NCBI RefSeq assembly: GCF_003314975.1
Contig: NZ_QNRF01000010.1
Span: 1-64,000 of the forward strand
DNA length: 64,000 nucleotides
Direction: 5' to 3'
DNA from: Marinomonas aquiplantarum
Lineage (GTDB): Bacteria; Pseudomonadota; Gammaproteobacteria; Pseudomonadales; Marinomonadaceae
Made by a program: the position numbers and the translations under genes. The notes under the pieces were generated by a model. The model searched no databases. It was not told where the DNA came from and saw only the letters and a list, made by a program, of their open reading frames with translations. This document shows, one piece after another, positions 40,896 through 48,749 of this stretch; position 1 is the first letter of the stretch, and each line of letters opens with the position of its first letter.

Positions 40896-41780
40896 ATGCG
40901 AGTCGTTATATTACTTTCTATTTTGCTAATCAGTGCTTTTAATCCAGCGTTAGCCGAACCTGATTTTGCTCACATAAAACACATGGCACAACTGTCTTCG
41001 GATACCTATGAAGCCGCTCAGCAAGAAGAGCTGAACACAAATACTTTAGCGGATAAACTAGCGCAACAAGACGAAGTTTTATTACATGATTCTGTTATAC
41101 CCAATTCGGATGTGCTGTATTTTTTATCGGAAAACAGCCAATACCAAACCATCGCGATTCGTGGCACTGCTAACCTAAATAATGTCATTGTGGATTTAAC
41201 CGTCTCACTGCAACCCAATAAAGCGCTGGGTATTCTTCTACATCAAGGCTTTGCCGAAGCCGCTCAGCAAGTGTTAGAAGATGTTAGACCCTACTTAAGA
41301 AGTAACAAACCAATTCGCATTACAGGTCACAGTCTAGGAGGCGCGATTGCCGTAGTATTGGGCATGTTGGTTCAAGAGGAATCCCTACCGCTTGAGCAAA
41401 TTACGACATTTGGACAGCCCAAAGTAACCAATGTCAGTGGCGCTAAAAAGTTTGCTGACCTGCCTCTGATCCGCGTCGTAACACAAGACGACATCGTCCC
41501 CTTAGTGCCACCCATCAGCCCATTACAAATTCGGAATTTAGACATTTTTTGGCACATGGGAGAAGAGATCATCCTGTTAGCACCTCACCAATATTCCATC
41601 ACCAGTGGCCTAAAAAGCGCCATGAGAGCAACCAAGTTCACCAATAAATTACCGAGTGAAGCGAACTTGCTCGCCCATACCATGGCGCAATATTTGAGTT
41701 TATTAGAGCAATTGCAGCAGAACAAACAGGCCATTCCCTATCGCATGGACATAAACCTGTTTGGCATTTCCATTGACTAG
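40896..41780 (+). CDS. class 3 lipase, exported
   Basis: A 294-aa protein with a signal peptide (cleavage after about residue 20, PALA-EP). The lipase nucleophile motif is GHSLGG (Ser146), followed by FGQPKV and the Asp region VTQDDIVPLVPP; His is probably in the LAHTMAQY or HQYSI segment. The oxyanion and fold pattern match fungal-type class 3 lipases. Its stop codon shares the CTAG tetranucleotide with the stop of the convergent Hsp70 gene. Confidence 0.85.
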   Translation: MRVVILLSILLISAFNPALAEPDFAHIKHMAQLSSDTYEAAQQEELNTNTLADKLAQQDEVLLHDSVIPNSDVLYFLSENSQYQTIAIRGTANLNNVIVDLTVSLQPNKALGILLHQGFAEAAQQVLEDVRPYLRSNKPIRITGHSLGGAIAVVLGMLVQEESLPLEQITTFGQPKVTNVSGAKKFADLPLIRVVTQDDIVPLVPPISPLQIRNLDIFWHMGEEIILLAPHQYSITSGLKSAMRATKFTNKLPSEANLLAHTMAQYLSLLEQLQQNKQAIPYRMDINLFGISID

Positions 41781-44476
41781 TCAGAAGATAAACGCAAACC
41801 AATGGGCAAACTCTCGCCCACTAACGAATTTAATTCTTCCGAACTGATCTCGACCTGACTCTCAAGACGACTTGCCCATTGCGATGGGCATTTGTCTTTG
41901 ACTAACTTTTTAGACACTTTCTTGCGATAGTCAGTCAACCAATCCGATTCCCCGACTGATATCTGGCACATGAGAACAGCAGCTAAACCAGCTTGCTTAC
42001 GTTTCTTCCAATCTTCTTTCAATGCTCGATCTAAAATGGCCTGTAACTCCGACTCAGGCAATCGATCAGACGCCTCTCCAGACAAAAGACGACGAGAAGC
42101 AATTCGTCCCAACGTCCACCAAGCGGTGTCTGGCTCAGACGATTTCGTCAAACGCTTCAACAACCACTCTACCAAGGTTTGTTTTTCAGACAGGGACAAG
42201 CTTTCCAACGCGCCCATCAATCGAATGAGATCATCGCTAGAACGGGTGGCGAGCGCCTTCATTTTCTCTCTTGAGCGCTGTCCCGCAGGTGAATAGAACT
42301 GGCTGAACTGCTTAAACAAGTTCATTTGTTGATCTAATGACAAACCACCCGCAATACGGCGATACAAGGTCCAATATTGTCCCCAAACGGCCGCACTATC
42401 GAACTGAGTACCTGCTTTGGTTAAATTAATGACTTGCTGAACTCGGCTTTCATCGCCTTCTGCGCCATAACCCGGGCGCAGACAATAGCCCAATAACTGA
42501 AGCCACTGCCGTTCATGCTGGGCACTTTTCACTCGACCAGACTTTAATACCAGCAATTTATCCACCACTCTTCGAGAAGTGGCCAAACTCCAGTCGTCGC
42601 GAGCACCAAGTAATTGATCCAGATCTTGTTTTAACGATTTCACCAAATCTGGTGATTGCTTTTGACCCGCACTGGAAAAGCATCGCGCCAAATGCTCTTC
42701 TGCTTCGCCCATTTTGGCGGCGAGCAAACCTTCATTGTCGCGGGTAACACGCTCTTCTGAAGCTTGCGTGGAAAACTCCAAACGCCATTTGTCAGATGAA
42801 CCCGCACTTAACAGTTCCAGCTGCAGAATGCCCACCTCAGTCATTTGCGCAGCAACATTGACCTGCACTTCTGCGCTGTCTTGCTGCGCATCCAACTCAG
42901 TGGCTAAAGTAGATATATAATGTAGACCTGACTCGTCACGCACCTCACCAAGCTTGCCAATAATATGGTCGCCTGCACGATAAAGAGGAAATTGCACTTC
43001 CTCTCCCAAGGTCACCATAAAATCCCGTGACAATGTCAGGGGTTCAGCCGTCAATGTGCCTTTAGGCAAGATACAAACAAACTGCTGCTCTGCCAGTTTT
43101 AAATACAAGCTATGCGGCACACCGCTCTCAATTCGGTGCCCTTCACCGGCTAAGGCTTTCAGATACCAAGCTGCCCCTTTGGCAACCGCCTCGTTCGGCG
43201 CTTCCGCAAGACATTCTAAAATAGGCTGATCTGTCCAAGTATTTAACTGCTTAAGCAACTGGCTTTTTAGAAGCTCACTGTTAAATAAACCACCATTAAA
43301 AAGCACAGCGTCTGGCATAGACGACTGAGTCGCTTGCTGAATATCGGCTTGGTGTTGACGAATGAAATCCGCGATATGACGTGTAAAAGCCGGATCAGAT
43401 TCATAGGCTAATCCTAGCGTATGCATCGCATATGAGCTTTTATGCACGCTATCGTCCAATGCGACCATAGGGAAAAAGCCAGAGCTGACTTGATCTAATA
43501 ATGCAGCACGAGAGACATCGAATTTTTGTGCACCACCAATCAATCGACTGCCGCCGCCTAATACCGTAATACTCAAGGATTCAGGTGCGTCATCACTGAG
43601 CAAGGTTTCTTTTGCTCGGCGGGTTTGCTGCACCAAGGCCGCTAATCGAGACGCCGATAAAGCAGAGATTTGTTTAGGATCCAACTGAAACGCCAAAGCT
43701 TGATCAAGATTATCGCCACCCAATAATAGGTGTTCACCAACAGCGATTCGCTTCAAGGCAATGTGGTTCTTCTTCGTGCTAGGTAAAATCGATACCAAAC
43801 TGAAGTCACTGGTGCCACCACCAATATCCACTACCAGCAGCATTTTTTTATCCGCAAGATCCGCACGCTTTTGGTCATCACTAATATAGTGATAACAAGC
43901 GGCTTGTGGTTCTTCTAATAAATACAGATCATTCAAACCTGCTTTCTTCGCCGCTTCTAGCGTCAAAGCTCGGGCTTCTTCATCGAACGAGGCCGGCAAG
44001 GTTAACGCCACTTGCTGCTGCTCTAAAGGCGCATCGGCAAATTGCTGATTCCAACTTTGACGAATGTGCTGCAACAAGAGTTCGCTGGCTTTGAGTGGAC
44101 TGATTTTATTTTTTAGCTCACTTCCCCACGGCAGAATAGCCGCACGGCGATCCACTTGACGATGACTAAGCCAACTTTTAGCACTTTGTACCAATTGACC
44201 CGCTCGACGTTGGCCTAATGCCAAAGCTCCCATTCCAACAATGTAGTCTTTATCTTGGCTATTATGCCAAGGTAAAACAGGATCAATCTTACCCAGTTCG
44301 TCGTCGGCTAAAAGATAAATCGCACTGGGCAGATAATCGAACGTTTGTACCGACGCATCTGCCATGAACTGCGGCATAGATAATAACAAAGGCTCGGACG
44401 CTTCTGGTGTTAAATAAGACACCACACAGTTTGTTGTCCCTAGGTCAATACCAACTCGATAAGCGCCTTTTGTCAT
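41777..44476 (-). CDS. Hsp70-like protein with DUF3731 C-terminal region
   Basis: An 899-aa DnaK-related protein. The actin-like ATPase domain (residues 1 to about 420) has phosphate-1 GIDLGTTNC, LPASFDEEAR, phosphate-2 VVDIGGGTSDFSL, GGDNLD and the adenosine-site-like LFNGGLFNS. A short beta-module (about 480-560, QVNVAAQMTEVGILQLEL, then KWRLEFSTQ) resembles the end of the neighbouring Hsp70. A ~320-aa helical C-terminal part matches the DnaK-related DUF3731 family. No standard substrate-binding lid is seen. Its start overlaps the upstream Hsp70 stop by one base. Function unknown. Confidence 0.88.
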   Translation of the reverse strand: MTKGAYRVGIDLGTTNCVVSYLTPEASEPLLLSMPQFMADASVQTFDYLPSAIYLLADDELGKIDPVLPWHNSQDKDYIVGMGALALGQRRAGQLVQSAKSWLSHRQVDRRAAILPWGSELKNKISPLKASELLLQHIRQSWNQQFADAPLEQQQVALTLPASFDEEARALTLEAAKKAGLNDLYLLEEPQAACYHYISDDQKRADLADKKMLLVVDIGGGTSDFSLVSILPSTKKNHIALKRIAVGEHLLLGGDNLDQALAFQLDPKQISALSASRLAALVQQTRRAKETLLSDDAPESLSITVLGGGSRLIGGAQKFDVSRAALLDQVSSGFFPMVALDDSVHKSSYAMHTLGLAYESDPAFTRHIADFIRQHQADIQQATQSSMPDAVLFNGGLFNSELLKSQLLKQLNTWTDQPILECLAEAPNEAVAKGAAWYLKALAGEGHRIESGVPHSLYLKLAEQQFVCILPKGTLTAEPLTLSRDFMVTLGEEVQFPLYRAGDHIIGKLGEVRDESGLHYISTLATELDAQQDSAEVQVNVAAQMTEVGILQLELLSAGSSDKWRLEFSTQASEERVTRDNEGLLAAKMGEAEEHLARCFSSAGQKQSPDLVKSLKQDLDQLLGARDDWSLATSRRVVDKLLVLKSGRVKSAQHERQWLQLLGYCLRPGYGAEGDESRVQQVINLTKAGTQFDSAAVWGQYWTLYRRIAGGLSLDQQMNLFKQFSQFYSPAGQRSREKMKALATRSSDDLIRLMGALESLSLSEKQTLVEWLLKRLTKSSEPDTAWWTLGRIASRRLLSGEASDRLPESELQAILDRALKEDWKKRKQAGLAAVLMCQISVGESDWLTDYRKKVSKKLVKDKCPSQWASRLESQVEISSEELNSLVGESLPIGLRLSSD

Positions 44477-46233
44477 TAACCTTCCCTCACCTGAAACTCA
44501 ATTTTCCATTGTAAATCCGAACGAGTATCGTGAGCTTGTAACAGCAACAAACCTAAATCTGTCACTTGCGCAGTAACGTAAACACGTACCATCTCGCCTT
44601 TGGCGTAATGTCCCTCATCAAGTTGAATGCTTAATGGGTTCAATTCGTTTAGCTGAGCCAAGGAGAAAGAAGAAATGACCTTACCCAAGGGTTCGGCTTC
44701 ACTTTTTTGCGATTGAAAGAAACGGAAATGAACGGGCTCACCCACAACCAATGAGAACTCATTTGGCAGCATTTGCTCATCACTCCCTTCTTCCAACCCA
44801 AACGGCGCCACACAGATAGCATCTATTGGTGGCGGCATACCCGGAATCGCCGGCATGGGACTGGCAACCCCTATGTAATAGTTCGCTGCTAAACCGCTTT
44901 TTACTTTGACTCCGCCATTGGCTTGAACCTGAGCATAATAGGTCGCGCCCTTCGCCACCGCATGATCTAGGTGAGCAGGCGTCAACATAGTAAATTGAGC
45001 CCCTTCAAGCAGTTCACTCAGTCGAGAAGACAAACTTGTCACCATAGGCGAAGCGTTAAACACACCACCGTTTAGCAAGACTTTAGTCGGCTTCGCCTGA
45101 TATTGACCTATAAACTCACTGATATGCCGAGTGATCGCCGGGTCACTTTCGTAATCCAGATTGATCGTACTGATACCAGAACGAGCTATTTTTTGAGCTT
45201 GCTCACCCGCGCTCACCGCAGGGAAAAAGCCCTCAATTAATAACTGCTGAACATCACTCTGCGTTAACGTCGCTTTGATGCTTTTGTTAAAGATGCTGCG
45301 CCCACGGCTTGGCACCACAACCGAAGCGTCCGTTAGCTCAGGATTAGCAAGCAGACGCTCTTTCGCATCCCGACACGCTTGAGTCAAACCACTAATTTGC
45401 CATGGCTCTAGCTGGGTACCTTGTTGTGCTAATTGCCCAGCCAAATGGTAGGTTAACGTCATGTCCATATTGTCGCCGCCAAGCAAAATATGACGACCAA
45501 CAGCAATGCGCTCTAAGCCCAACGCTCCCGATTCTTCGGTCACTTGAATCAAAGATAAATCGGTAGTACCACCGCCGACATCAACTACAAGAATCTGTTC
45601 GCCTAGCGTTAACTGGCTTTGCCAATCCTGCTGATCCGCTAACCAAGCGTAGAATGCCGCTAAAGGCTCTTCGATGAGTCTCGCCCTTAATCCTACTTTC
45701 TCAGCCGCTTGTTCAGTAACCGTTCGAGCGGCAGGGTCAAATGATGCCGGTACCGTAATGACGACCTCTTGTTGTGACATCGGCGACATTGGAAAAGCAT
45801 GATTCCAAGCGGACACCAAATGGCCTAGCAAGCTTTCAGTCACCTGCGCGGGCGACACCTTGTCGACTTCTTCCAAAGCATCGATTGGCAATACCGCTTC
45901 GTCTGGCCCAACTTGCGAATGGCATAACCAACTTTTTGCACTTTGCACCATACGACCAGATGACTTTGCCCCCAATTCACGGGCCAGTTGACCAAGAATG
46001 TACGAGGTTTCCCCCCACGGCAACTGTAAGTCACTTTCAAGAAATTCCGTGGCATGAGGGTAATACACAAAGGATGGCAATAGCGGACGTTCTACCACCT
46101 GCCCTGCAGCACTTAACTGAGGAATCAGTAGTTGCTGTAAGCTAGGAGACGGCTCATTCGCTTTGTTTTTCTCTAAAAAGTAGACAGCCGAATGCGTGGT
46201 ACCTAAATCGATACCAATGACATAGTCACTCAT
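44476..46233 (-). CDS. Hsp70-family protein without lid domain
   Basis: A 585-aa DnaK-related ATPase. The nucleotide-binding domain (about 1-420) has GIDLGTTHS, VPASFDPAART, IEEPLAAFYAW, VVDVGGGTTDLSL, GGDNMD and LLNGGVFNA. The C-terminal ~150 residues make a beta-rich module ending with VTDLGLLLLQAHDTRSDLQWKIEF, shared in pattern with the 899-aa paralogue, and stop where a DnaK lid would begin. It lies 2 bases after the DUF2760 gene and overlaps the next Hsp70 gene. No dnaJ or grpE is adjacent. Confidence 0.88.
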   Translation of the reverse strand: MSDYVIGIDLGTTHSAVYFLEKNKANEPSPSLQQLLIPQLSAAGQVVERPLLPSFVYYPHATEFLESDLQLPWGETSYILGQLARELGAKSSGRMVQSAKSWLCHSQVGPDEAVLPIDALEEVDKVSPAQVTESLLGHLVSAWNHAFPMSPMSQQEVVITVPASFDPAARTVTEQAAEKVGLRARLIEEPLAAFYAWLADQQDWQSQLTLGEQILVVDVGGGTTDLSLIQVTEESGALGLERIAVGRHILLGGDNMDMTLTYHLAGQLAQQGTQLEPWQISGLTQACRDAKERLLANPELTDASVVVPSRGRSIFNKSIKATLTQSDVQQLLIEGFFPAVSAGEQAQKIARSGISTINLDYESDPAITRHISEFIGQYQAKPTKVLLNGGVFNASPMVTSLSSRLSELLEGAQFTMLTPAHLDHAVAKGATYYAQVQANGGVKVKSGLAANYYIGVASPMPAIPGMPPPIDAICVAPFGLEEGSDEQMLPNEFSLVVGEPVHFRFFQSQKSEAEPLGKVISSFSLAQLNELNPLSIQLDEGHYAKGEMVRVYVTAQVTDLGLLLLQAHDTRSDLQWKIEFQVREG

Positions 46234-46235
46234 GA

Positions 46236-46829
46236 TTACACCTCGACTTCAGCAGGCGCCAGAATAGACAAGCTTTGGGTTTGGCTGACTTTAGGCAATC
46301 GTATGTCTGTCACTTGCCAGCCTGGGTGAATCAAGTTCCCCGAATATGGCCCCGTTCCTTCGACACGACCTTCCAGCTTGATTTGCTGTGCATCATAATC
46401 CGCTGGGACAGTCACCGAGGTATTTTCAGGCGCCGAATTCACCACCTCAATGGTAAAGTTTTGCGCCAAAACCTTGCTGCTACCAGCATGAATTTGACGC
46501 GCTGCAGCACCCACTTCTTCATCGGAATAGGCATCAATGCTTTCCTGCACGAAGTCAATAAAACGCGCTTCTTGCTGTAAAAGTTGCAGCAATTGCAATG
46601 CACCATCTGTATTCACTGACGCGAGAGCCGGCGCAGCCACCTCGATCTCGCGAATCACTTCAACTTCTTCTGTGATGACTTTCGGCTCTACTTCAAAGGC
46701 CAACTTTTCACCTTGGCCTATGGCAAGACAACGAGCCGCATAATCCCCATTGCTCAAATATTTAAAAAATTGACCAAAGGCACCAAATAAGCGCGGAATG
46801 AAAGACACTTTCGTTAATGTTTGACTCAT
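46236..46829 (-). CDS. DUF2760 protein, Hsp70-associated
   Basis: A 197-aa protein. An N-terminal stretch (about 1-45) and a Glu/Val-rich segment precede the DUF2760 core (about 75-197: LQLLQQEARFIDFVQESIDAYSDEEVGAAARQIH, then YSGNLIHPGWQV, ending LSILAPAEVEV). There is no signal peptide or clear membrane helix. DUF2760 is recurrently found beside these Hsp70 genes; its role is unknown, perhaps an adaptor or client-recognition subunit (inference). It begins 3 bases after the uup stop. Confidence 0.8.
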   Translation of the reverse strand: MSQTLTKVSFIPRLFGAFGQFFKYLSNGDYAARCLAIGQGEKLAFEVEPKVITEEVEVIREIEVAAPALASVNTDGALQLLQLLQQEARFIDFVQESIDAYSDEEVGAAARQIHAGSSKVLAQNFTIEVVNSAPENTSVTVPADYDAQQIKLEGRVEGTGPYSGNLIHPGWQVTDIRLPKVSQTQSLSILAPAEVEV

Positions 46830-46832
46830 GTT

Positions 46833-48749
46833 TTATCCGTTCTGCATTTCTTCTAACTCAAGCCAACGCTCCATTGTTGTCTCCAGTTCTTGTTCTTTTT
46901 CGGCCATTTTCGCTAAGGTGTCCTGTACCTTTTGCGCATCGCCGCTGTAAAAATCTGCCGCGCCCGTTATTTGCTGAAAGGCTTCCAGCTCGGCTTCTAA
47001 TTTAGCAATGGCATCTGGCATGCCATCGAATTCTCGTTGTAATTTATAGCTCAGCTTACTTTTCGCTTTGCTGGCTGGCGCTGGCTTGTTCACTTCCGTT
47101 GTCGAGGTATCAGCTTTAGCTTTAGGCTTGCTCTCGGTCGTCTGAGAGGTAGATTCCGCTGGGAACTTACCACCCTGACGAATCCAATCTTGATAACCGC
47201 CCACATACTCGCGCACCACGCCTTCACCTTCAAAGGCAATGACGCTGGTCACCACATTGTCTAGGAAAGCACGATCGTGACTGACCAATAACAAGGTGCC
47301 ATCGTAGTTCATTAAAAGCTCTTCTAGTAACTCAAGGGTTTCAACGTCTAGGTCATTGGTCGGTTCGTCCATCACCAAAAGGTTCGCAGGCTTGGTAAAG
47401 AGTTTCGCCAGCAATACGCGGTTTCGCTCGCCACCGGACAAAGCTTTCACTGGAGTACGTGCTCGCTCTGGGGGAAACAGGAAATCCCCTAAATAACCAA
47501 TAACGTGCTTGTTCTGACCATTAATTTCAATAGTCTCTTTGCCTTCACCAACGTTTTCTGCCACCGTTTGCTCAGGGTTAAGCTGTTCACGTAGCTGATC
47601 AAAATAGGCAACGTTAAGCTTAGTCCCTTGACGTACGGTACCTGAGCTTGGCTCTAAATCACCCAGCAAGATTTTTAAGAAAGTACTCTTACCACAACCG
47701 TTCGGACCGATTAAACCAATGCGATCACCACGATTAACCATGAAGTCCATTGGTTGCAGGATAACCTTGTCTTCAAAAGCATGACCGACTTGCGTAAATT
47801 CGGCGACCAACTTGCCGGATTTCTCCTTGGTCTCAATCGACATTTTAGCGTTGCCTTGACGATCAATACGCTCTGAACGCTCAACTCGCAAAGCCTTCAA
47901 TGCTCTGACTCGACCTTCATTACGAGTTCGACGAGCTTTGATGCCCTGTCGAATCCAGACTTCTTCTTCGGCTAGACGTTTATCAAATAACGCATTAGCA
48001 CGCTCTTCTTCTTCCAACAGTTTTTCTTTGAAGACTAAAAACTCATTAATATTGCCGGTGAAAGACAGCAAATTCCCGCGATCTAATTCAACAATGCGGT
48101 TCGCCAATTTTTCAAGAAAGCGTCTATCGTGGGTAATAAAGAGAATCAAACCACGAAACTGTAGCAGCTGTTGTTCCATCCATTCTATGGTCGGTACGTC
48201 CAAATGGTTGGTTGGCTCGTCCAGTAGTAAAACATCTGGGGCCGAAATCAAAGCTTGCGCTAAAATGACTCGGCGACGCCAGCCACCGGACAATTCAGAC
48301 ATCAACTTATCCGCCGGTAACGCCAAACGCTGAATCATGTGATTAACACGTTGCTCTAAATCCCAACCTTGCAAACGATCGAGATCATTTTGAATGTGGC
48401 CCAGTTCATCAGAATGATCCTGCTCCATATCTTCCAAGAGTTTAAAATAGCGCGTCATCAATTGATGTATTTCGCCCGCGCCTTCACTGACCACTTCGCG
48501 TACCGTTTTACCATTTGCTTCTGGCAACTCTTGTGGCAATTGCGCAATGCGCATGCCACCTTCAAGGCGCACCACACCTTCATCTGGAATTTGTTCGCCA
48601 GACACCACTTTTAAAAAGGTCGATTTACCAGCACCATTACGGCCAATGATTGCAACACGTTCACCCGCTTCAGCGGAAAAACTGATTTTTGACAACAGCG
48701 GGTTGTGTCCAAACGCAACACTCACCTGCTCTAAAGACAATAGACTCAT
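46833..48749 (-). CDS. uup: ABC-F ATPase Uup
   Basis: A 638-aa soluble protein with two ABC cassettes: Walker A GRNGAGKST (about residue 36) and GPNGCGKST (about 352), signatures LSGGWRRRV and LSGGERNRV, Walker B LLLDEPTNHLD and LVMDEPTNDLD. A charged ABC-F linker lies between them and a C-terminal Uup coiled coil (about 560-638). E. coli Uup acts on ribosomes and affects transposon excision. It appears to be the first gene of a four-gene unit with DUF2760 and two Hsp70 genes. Confidence 0.95.
   Translation of the reverse strand: MSLLSLEQVSVAFGHNPLLSKISFSAEAGERVAIIGRNGAGKSTFLKVVSGEQIPDEGVVRLEGGMRIAQLPQELPEANGKTVREVVSEGAGEIHQLMTRYFKLLEDMEQDHSDELGHIQNDLDRLQGWDLEQRVNHMIQRLALPADKLMSELSGGWRRRVILAQALISAPDVLLLDEPTNHLDVPTIEWMEQQLLQFRGLILFITHDRRFLEKLANRIVELDRGNLLSFTGNINEFLVFKEKLLEEEERANALFDKRLAEEEVWIRQGIKARRTRNEGRVRALKALRVERSERIDRQGNAKMSIETKEKSGKLVAEFTQVGHAFEDKVILQPMDFMVNRGDRIGLIGPNGCGKSTFLKILLGDLEPSSGTVRQGTKLNVAYFDQLREQLNPEQTVAENVGEGKETIEINGQNKHVIGYLGDFLFPPERARTPVKALSGGERNRVLLAKLFTKPANLLVMDEPTNDLDVETLELLEELLMNYDGTLLLVSHDRAFLDNVVTSVIAFEGEGVVREYVGGYQDWIRQGGKFPAESTSQTTESKPKAKADTSTTEVNKPAPASKAKSKLSYKLQREFDGMPDAIAKLEAELEAFQQITGAADFYSGDAQKVQDTLAKMAEKEQELETTMERWLELEEMQNG

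Follow-up and report, generated by a model that had tools for sequence, protein, structure and literature searches.

DUF2760, HspA and HspD form a conserved, co-inherited unit over many phyla. In the 64,000-nucleotide stretch of DNA analysed here (the window), their genes follow that of the ABC-F ATPase Uup, and the four leftward genes are packed with spacings of 3 and 2 bases and then a 1-base overlap, just as the preliminary description had read them (Table 1). This is a real, widespread and apparently undescribed Hsp70 unit; no paper on DUF2760 or DUF3731 was found in the open-access literature, nor was any account of the unit found among open-access papers dealing with membrane GrpE, Hsp70 paralogues or Hsp70s without a lid. 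With a probability of about 0.5, we propose that the three proteins make up one J-protein-independent, stress-linked and often membrane-associated machine, in which DUF2760 would serve as exchange factor or tether. To our knowledge, all well-studied Hsp70s depend on a J-protein. A widespread Hsp70 pair with catalysis kept and the known J interface lost would show another way of driving the Hsp70 cycle, and the unit gives DUF2760 and DUF3731, domains of unknown function, a testable setting.

Table 1. Genes and protein segments of the locus, in window positions.
Feature	Position	Strand	Description
uup	46833..48749	(-)	ABC-F ATPase, 638 aa
DUF2760 protein	46236..46829	(-)	197 aa; PF10816 E 3.6e-48, residues 74-196
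DUF2760 N-terminal helices, residues 11-38	46716..46799	(-)	amphipathic in the window protein
DUF2760 core, residues 74-197	46239..46610	(-)	helices then seven short strands; C-terminal end ..LP...LAPAEVEV
HspA, lidless Hsp70	44476..46233	(-)	585 aa; PF00012 E 1.8e-21
HspA interdomain linker	44875..44907	(-)	Gly-rich I/V-K/R-x-G motif at the place of DnaK VLLLD
HspA SBDbeta	44485..44874	(-)	end of the protein, without alpha lid; alignment to DnaK
HspD, Hsp70 + DUF3731	41777..44476	(-)	899 aa; Pfam confirms HSP70
HspD SBDbeta, residues 457-569	42770..43108	(-)	model superposed on DnaK
DUF3731, residues 651-896	41789..42526	(-)	PF12531 E 6.6e-74, 246 aa; bulk of the C-terminal helical array
Class-3 lipase gene	40896..41780	(+)	convergent; 4-base overlap with the HspD end, 41777-41780

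A survey of the genomic co-occurrence of DUF2760 and DUF3731, proposed in the preliminary description, bore out their association. Among 299 Pseudomonadota genomes, DUF3731 was present in 21 and DUF2760 in 22, and 21 of the 22 carry both; in the one DUF2760 genome without DUF3731, DUF2760 lies on a separate contig, and a broken assembly is possible. The hypergeometric probability of this overlap is 2e-31 when genomes are counted without regard to relatedness, and counting by genus, with both families in the same 8 of 153 genera, gives a p of about 1e-13. Exactly one DUF3731 and one DUF2760 were found in each of 14 genomes from many phyla, even when the genes were unlinked. This sample included genomes whose locus missed one gene, and its one-copy result is conditional on the presence of HspA or HspD because all 14 were picked for an HspA- or HspD-like gene. 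As for the suggestion that the two Hsp70s are an obligate pair, co-occurrence across genomes speaks for it and linkage against it, with one gene lying elsewhere in several genomes. Obligatory linkage of HspA and HspD was dropped, since the genes are split in some genomes.

The gene order DUF2760 > HspA > HspD recurs in Pseudomonadota, Thermodesulfobacteriota, Acidobacteriota, Verrucomicrobiota and Riflebacteria. When 84,980 named genomes were scanned, the 80 matches listed (from L085 onward, the loci are those of ordinary DnaK or HscA) included relatives in Gamma-, Beta- and Alphaproteobacteria, Thermodesulfobacteriota, Myxococcota, Acidobacteriota, Verrucomicrobiota, Planctomycetota, Cloacimonadota and Riflebacteria. 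Among plasmids and megareplicons, DUF2760 and HspA occur on an identical set of 11 records.

Individual loci show further variation. The conjugative 110-kb Bradyrhizobium barranii plasmid pCC829_3 (L135, 9725-15134) carries the full trio beside trb transfer genes, and Thiodictyon plasmid pTs485 (L134, 8662-11180) carries DUF2760 and HspA without HspD, next to annotated anti-phage genes. Unrelated genes sit between HspA and HspD at two loci (L043, 8053-10973; L082, 4422-12005). The three genes of Cupriavidus sp. UYMMa02A (L083, 5516-10898) appear as several overlapping open frames, reflecting decay or sequencing errors.

The association with uup has a much narrower range. The uup product scores 874.9 bits over residues 1-636 against NCBIfam ABC_ATPase_Uup, slightly below the cut-off of 900. 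DUF2760 is carried by 47 of 49 genomes of the window's genus, and uup stands directly before it in all 30 loci examined there, mostly with a gap of 3-7 bp. Among the loci examined outside this genus uup was never beside the unit, and no shared neighbour that would name a pathway recurs beyond single genera. Since uup is a neighbour only inside the genus and no other neighbour recurs, the uup-DUF2760 link is a local operon fusion confined to it. There, uup probably supplies the promoter of the unit, and placement behind uup would lead to constitutive co-transcription, which does not necessarily imply a shared function. The preliminary description had tied the unit to Uup and thereby possibly to the ribosome. 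A ribosome role is not supported, because the link is confined to one genus; about half of the DUF2760 members have a clear N-terminal transmembrane segment, which points towards the membrane. Joint action of the unit with Uup at the ribosome, to which the preserved tight spacing in the genus would lend itself, is therefore difficult to square with either the absence of uup beyond the genus or the many membrane anchors, and we regard it as highly improbable.

HspA and HspD belong to the Hsp70 superfamily. Against the NCBIfam DnaK and HscA equivalogs their best scores are 58-91 bits, with cut-offs of 620-822. A quick tree placed HspA in a single clade (SH-aLRT 99) and HspD as a grade around it, both far from DnaK; some branches are long and the deeper order is unsure. 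The full nucleotide-binding motifs, related post-ATPase beta modules and missing DnaK-type lid noted from the letters alone were all confirmed. D8, T11, K70, P143, E171, D194, T199 and D201 (E. coli DnaK numbering) are invariant across 44 HspA and 45 HspD sequences aligned, so both proteins are expected to hydrolyse ATP. The beta modules correspond to SBDbeta, by alignment for HspA and by superposition for HspD, whose model (pLDDT 82) fits DnaK over residues 3-573, NBD plus SBDbeta, with Z 33-38. The model is closest to ATP-bound forms of DnaK, with SBDbeta docked likewise. HspA stops after SBDbeta, and HspD has DUF3731 helices instead of a lid: residues 582-886, about 300 aa, are helical in the model at the place of the DnaK lid. 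The ~320-aa DUF3731 region reported earlier matches this whole predicted helical C-terminus; the Pfam domain itself covers 246 aa only.

These features bear on whether the pair are chaperones at all. An actin-like or signalling ATPase that acts like PilM or MreB could account for weak MreB matches within the ATPase domain and for a membrane-linked partner. We consider this very unlikely, given an SBDbeta docked as in ATP-bound DnaK and the sigma-32-like promoters described below.

The surfaces through which DnaK engages J-proteins have changed. Y145S, N147D, N170E and V218R (DnaK numbering) occur without exception in all 89 proteins aligned, and T173 is replaced by Q in almost all of them. In DnaK, Y145, N147, N170 and T173 also influence DnaJ binding. 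R167 and D393 are not conserved in the 44 HspA sequences, R167 is kept in 17 of 45 HspD sequences, and the DnaK linker VLLLD is replaced in HspA and HspD by a Gly-rich I(R/K/G/E)(G/A/S)G(T/A/S). In DnaK, R167, D393, L391 and the acidic residues around 206-217 are central to J-domain action, and the interdomain linker is required for ATPase stimulation (PMC8215388). The combination of J-domain interface residues and VLLLD linker that marks a J-protein-dependent Hsp70 is absent from HspA and HspD. The earlier observation that no DnaJ gene is nearby extends to the relatives: a scan of 52 relative loci found no J-domain ORF in their vicinity. On these well-founded grounds, we infer from the alignments that HspA and HspD are probably independent of J-proteins; another mode of J-protein action would be compatible with the loss of the known contact residues.

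The host genome encodes DnaK, DnaJ and a normal GrpE, with four J-domain proteins in total. HspA and HspD might then be ordinary accessory Hsp70s that borrow these housekeeping J-proteins and GrpE, with DUF2760 as a client-specific add-on. Both paralogues have invariably lost several of the residues that contact J-proteins, along with the linker, and no J gene was found near any locus, which makes this unlikely. The same genome has no HscA above cut-off and no match to HscB, which is unusual for a gammaproteobacterium and led us to consider the unit as a replacement of HscA.

The AF2 model of DUF2760 has a pLDDT of 83 overall and 93-97 over most of the core, in which helices precede seven short strands. 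The core has 26 invariant columns, and fewer in a wider sequence set. The N-terminus is amphipathic in the window's genus and in Burkholderiaceae, and the window protein lacks a clear transmembrane helix; in many other members, long V/E/K or P/A linkers accompany the transmembrane segments. In Vibrionaceae (L034, L036, L037, L038, L056 and L077), a long VEKVVEKPVEKIVEVE-type repeat runs from the membrane helix to the core, a stiff spacer of varying length. No solved relative was found by sequence search, and a viral structure library gave no match. A defence role was rejected: the sole PADLOC match was weak (ATPase type, 25 bits), and no phage relatives of DUF2760 were found.

A resemblance to GrpE is the best single lead on DUF2760, and it is suggestive only. 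A Foldseek search with the model gave no match with E below 0.001, with GrpE 1dkg at rank 5. In VIA, GrpE entries 3a6m, 9blt and 4ani were among the few rows reaching the beta-domain, and 4ani spans DUF2760 128-197 at 3.1 Å with 22% identity; the Z of these rows is about 4, a level that the tool itself calls common. In the model, the order of elements is similar to that of GrpE, long helices followed by a C-terminal beta-domain. Pfam GrpE did not match DUF2760. In a profile-profile comparison by hhalign, for which GrpE was chosen once the structure matches were known, the DUF2760 core scored 28.1 (P 0.001, probability 22%). None of 300 column shuffles reached this score (maximum 20.7), and reversing the profile gave 10.0. 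Ranked together with 43 unrelated families from these loci, GrpE came top at 25.9, with the runner-up at 22.5; full-length alignments gave P of 0.065 and 0.014 only. The match is co-linear and pairs the terminal motifs '..GW...LP....APAEVEL' and '..GY.L..R.LRPA.V.V'. Actual kinship of DUF2760 and GrpE is probably wrong, or else unprovable by sequence alone. The earlier proposal of an adaptor or exchange factor gains weak but specific support from this resemblance, in the VIA rows and the profile comparison, and we treat an exchange-factor role as a hypothesis.

The Hsp70 partners give mixed signals on nucleotide exchange. The K55-E267 and R56-E264 salt bridges, which make DnaK need GrpE (PMC8215388), are absent from HspA and HspD in the alignment, just as they are from HscA and HscC, which work without an exchange factor (PMC8215388). 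The lobe-IIB loop, site of DnaK's GrpE signature, retains its length (median 39 vs 37 in DnaK and 32 in HscA). A retained loop alongside lost cleft salt bridges cuts both ways for the exchange-factor idea. DUF2760 might instead tether both Hsp70s as a membrane receptor or scaffold without exchange activity; exchange would then be rapid and need no helper, as in HscA and HscC. The transmembrane segments and long linkers of many members fit such a tether, as does the loss of the salt bridges by which DnaK retards the release of ADP; the GrpE-like core and the kept lobe-IIB loop do not, and we find this account rather doubtful. As a tentative possibility, DUF2760 could be a GrpE homologue that has diverged, is anchored in the membrane and serves a J-protein-free Hsp70 pair alone, with a built-in DUF3731 module replacing the lid or the J-protein. 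If true, bacteria would own a second Hsp70 cycle, based at the membrane and equipped with an exchange factor of its own.

Promoter sequences may connect the unit with stress. Sigma-32-like sites (CTTGAAA-N12-16-CCCCAT, score at least 10.4, a threshold read off the score table) stand before DUF2760 at 7 of 42 loci and before 1 of 348 flanking genes (Fisher 8e-7); a single genus contributes three of these seven loci, and a verrucomicrobium one. In its first form, the test was passed by 10 of 11 grpE controls. No such site was seen in the window's uup promoter region, nor in most of the 42 loci. The unit looks heat-shock inducible in several gammaproteobacterial lineages, and given this appearance its likely task would be protein quality control under stress, with clients that are probably membrane or membrane-proximal.

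A proteomic study of Burkholderia pseudomallei reported a 65-kDa 'Hsp70 family protein' (PMC7085900). Its forward primer encodes GEHILL, the HspA motif; in every related betaproteobacterial locus tested, the primer lies closest to this site, with 2-4 mismatches. No position was found for the reverse primer. If the 65-kDa protein is HspA, then HspA is expressed.

In the proposed joint machine, HspA and HspD would hydrolyse ATP and bind clients without a J-protein. HspA, being lidless, may bind and release clients quickly, and HspD may retain a partner or client through its helical DUF3731 array. DUF2760 would keep both Hsp70s at the inner membrane face, where its GrpE-like beta-domain could open the nucleotide cleft of one or both.

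Compared with known systems, the unit shares with DnaK-DnaJ-GrpE the Hsp70 fold of NBD plus SBDbeta, identical catalytic residues, a third component whose core is weakly GrpE-like and, in some loci, sigma-32-like promoters. It differs in having two Hsp70 paralogues with either no lid or a DUF3731 array, replaced J-contact residues and hydrophobic linker, no J-protein gene and a membrane-anchored third component. E. coli HscC with tail-anchored DjlB/DjlC likewise combines an accessory Hsp70, believed to work at the membrane, with a co-factor bound there (PMC8215388), but its anchor is a J-protein, whereas that of the unit is DUF2760, and the unit has two Hsp70s. HscA-HscB resembles the unit as a specialised Hsp70, and the ATPase domain scores nearest to HscA models; however, it does so with 87 bits against a cut-off of 708, and HscA has a lid, an LPPVK-type client and a J-protein. 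The eukaryotic Hsp70-Hsp110 pair and Ssz1 of RAC also join two dissimilar Hsp70s, one with a shortened or extended C-terminus. Their kinship to HspA and HspD is at the superfamily level only, and the parallel is no more than an analogy.
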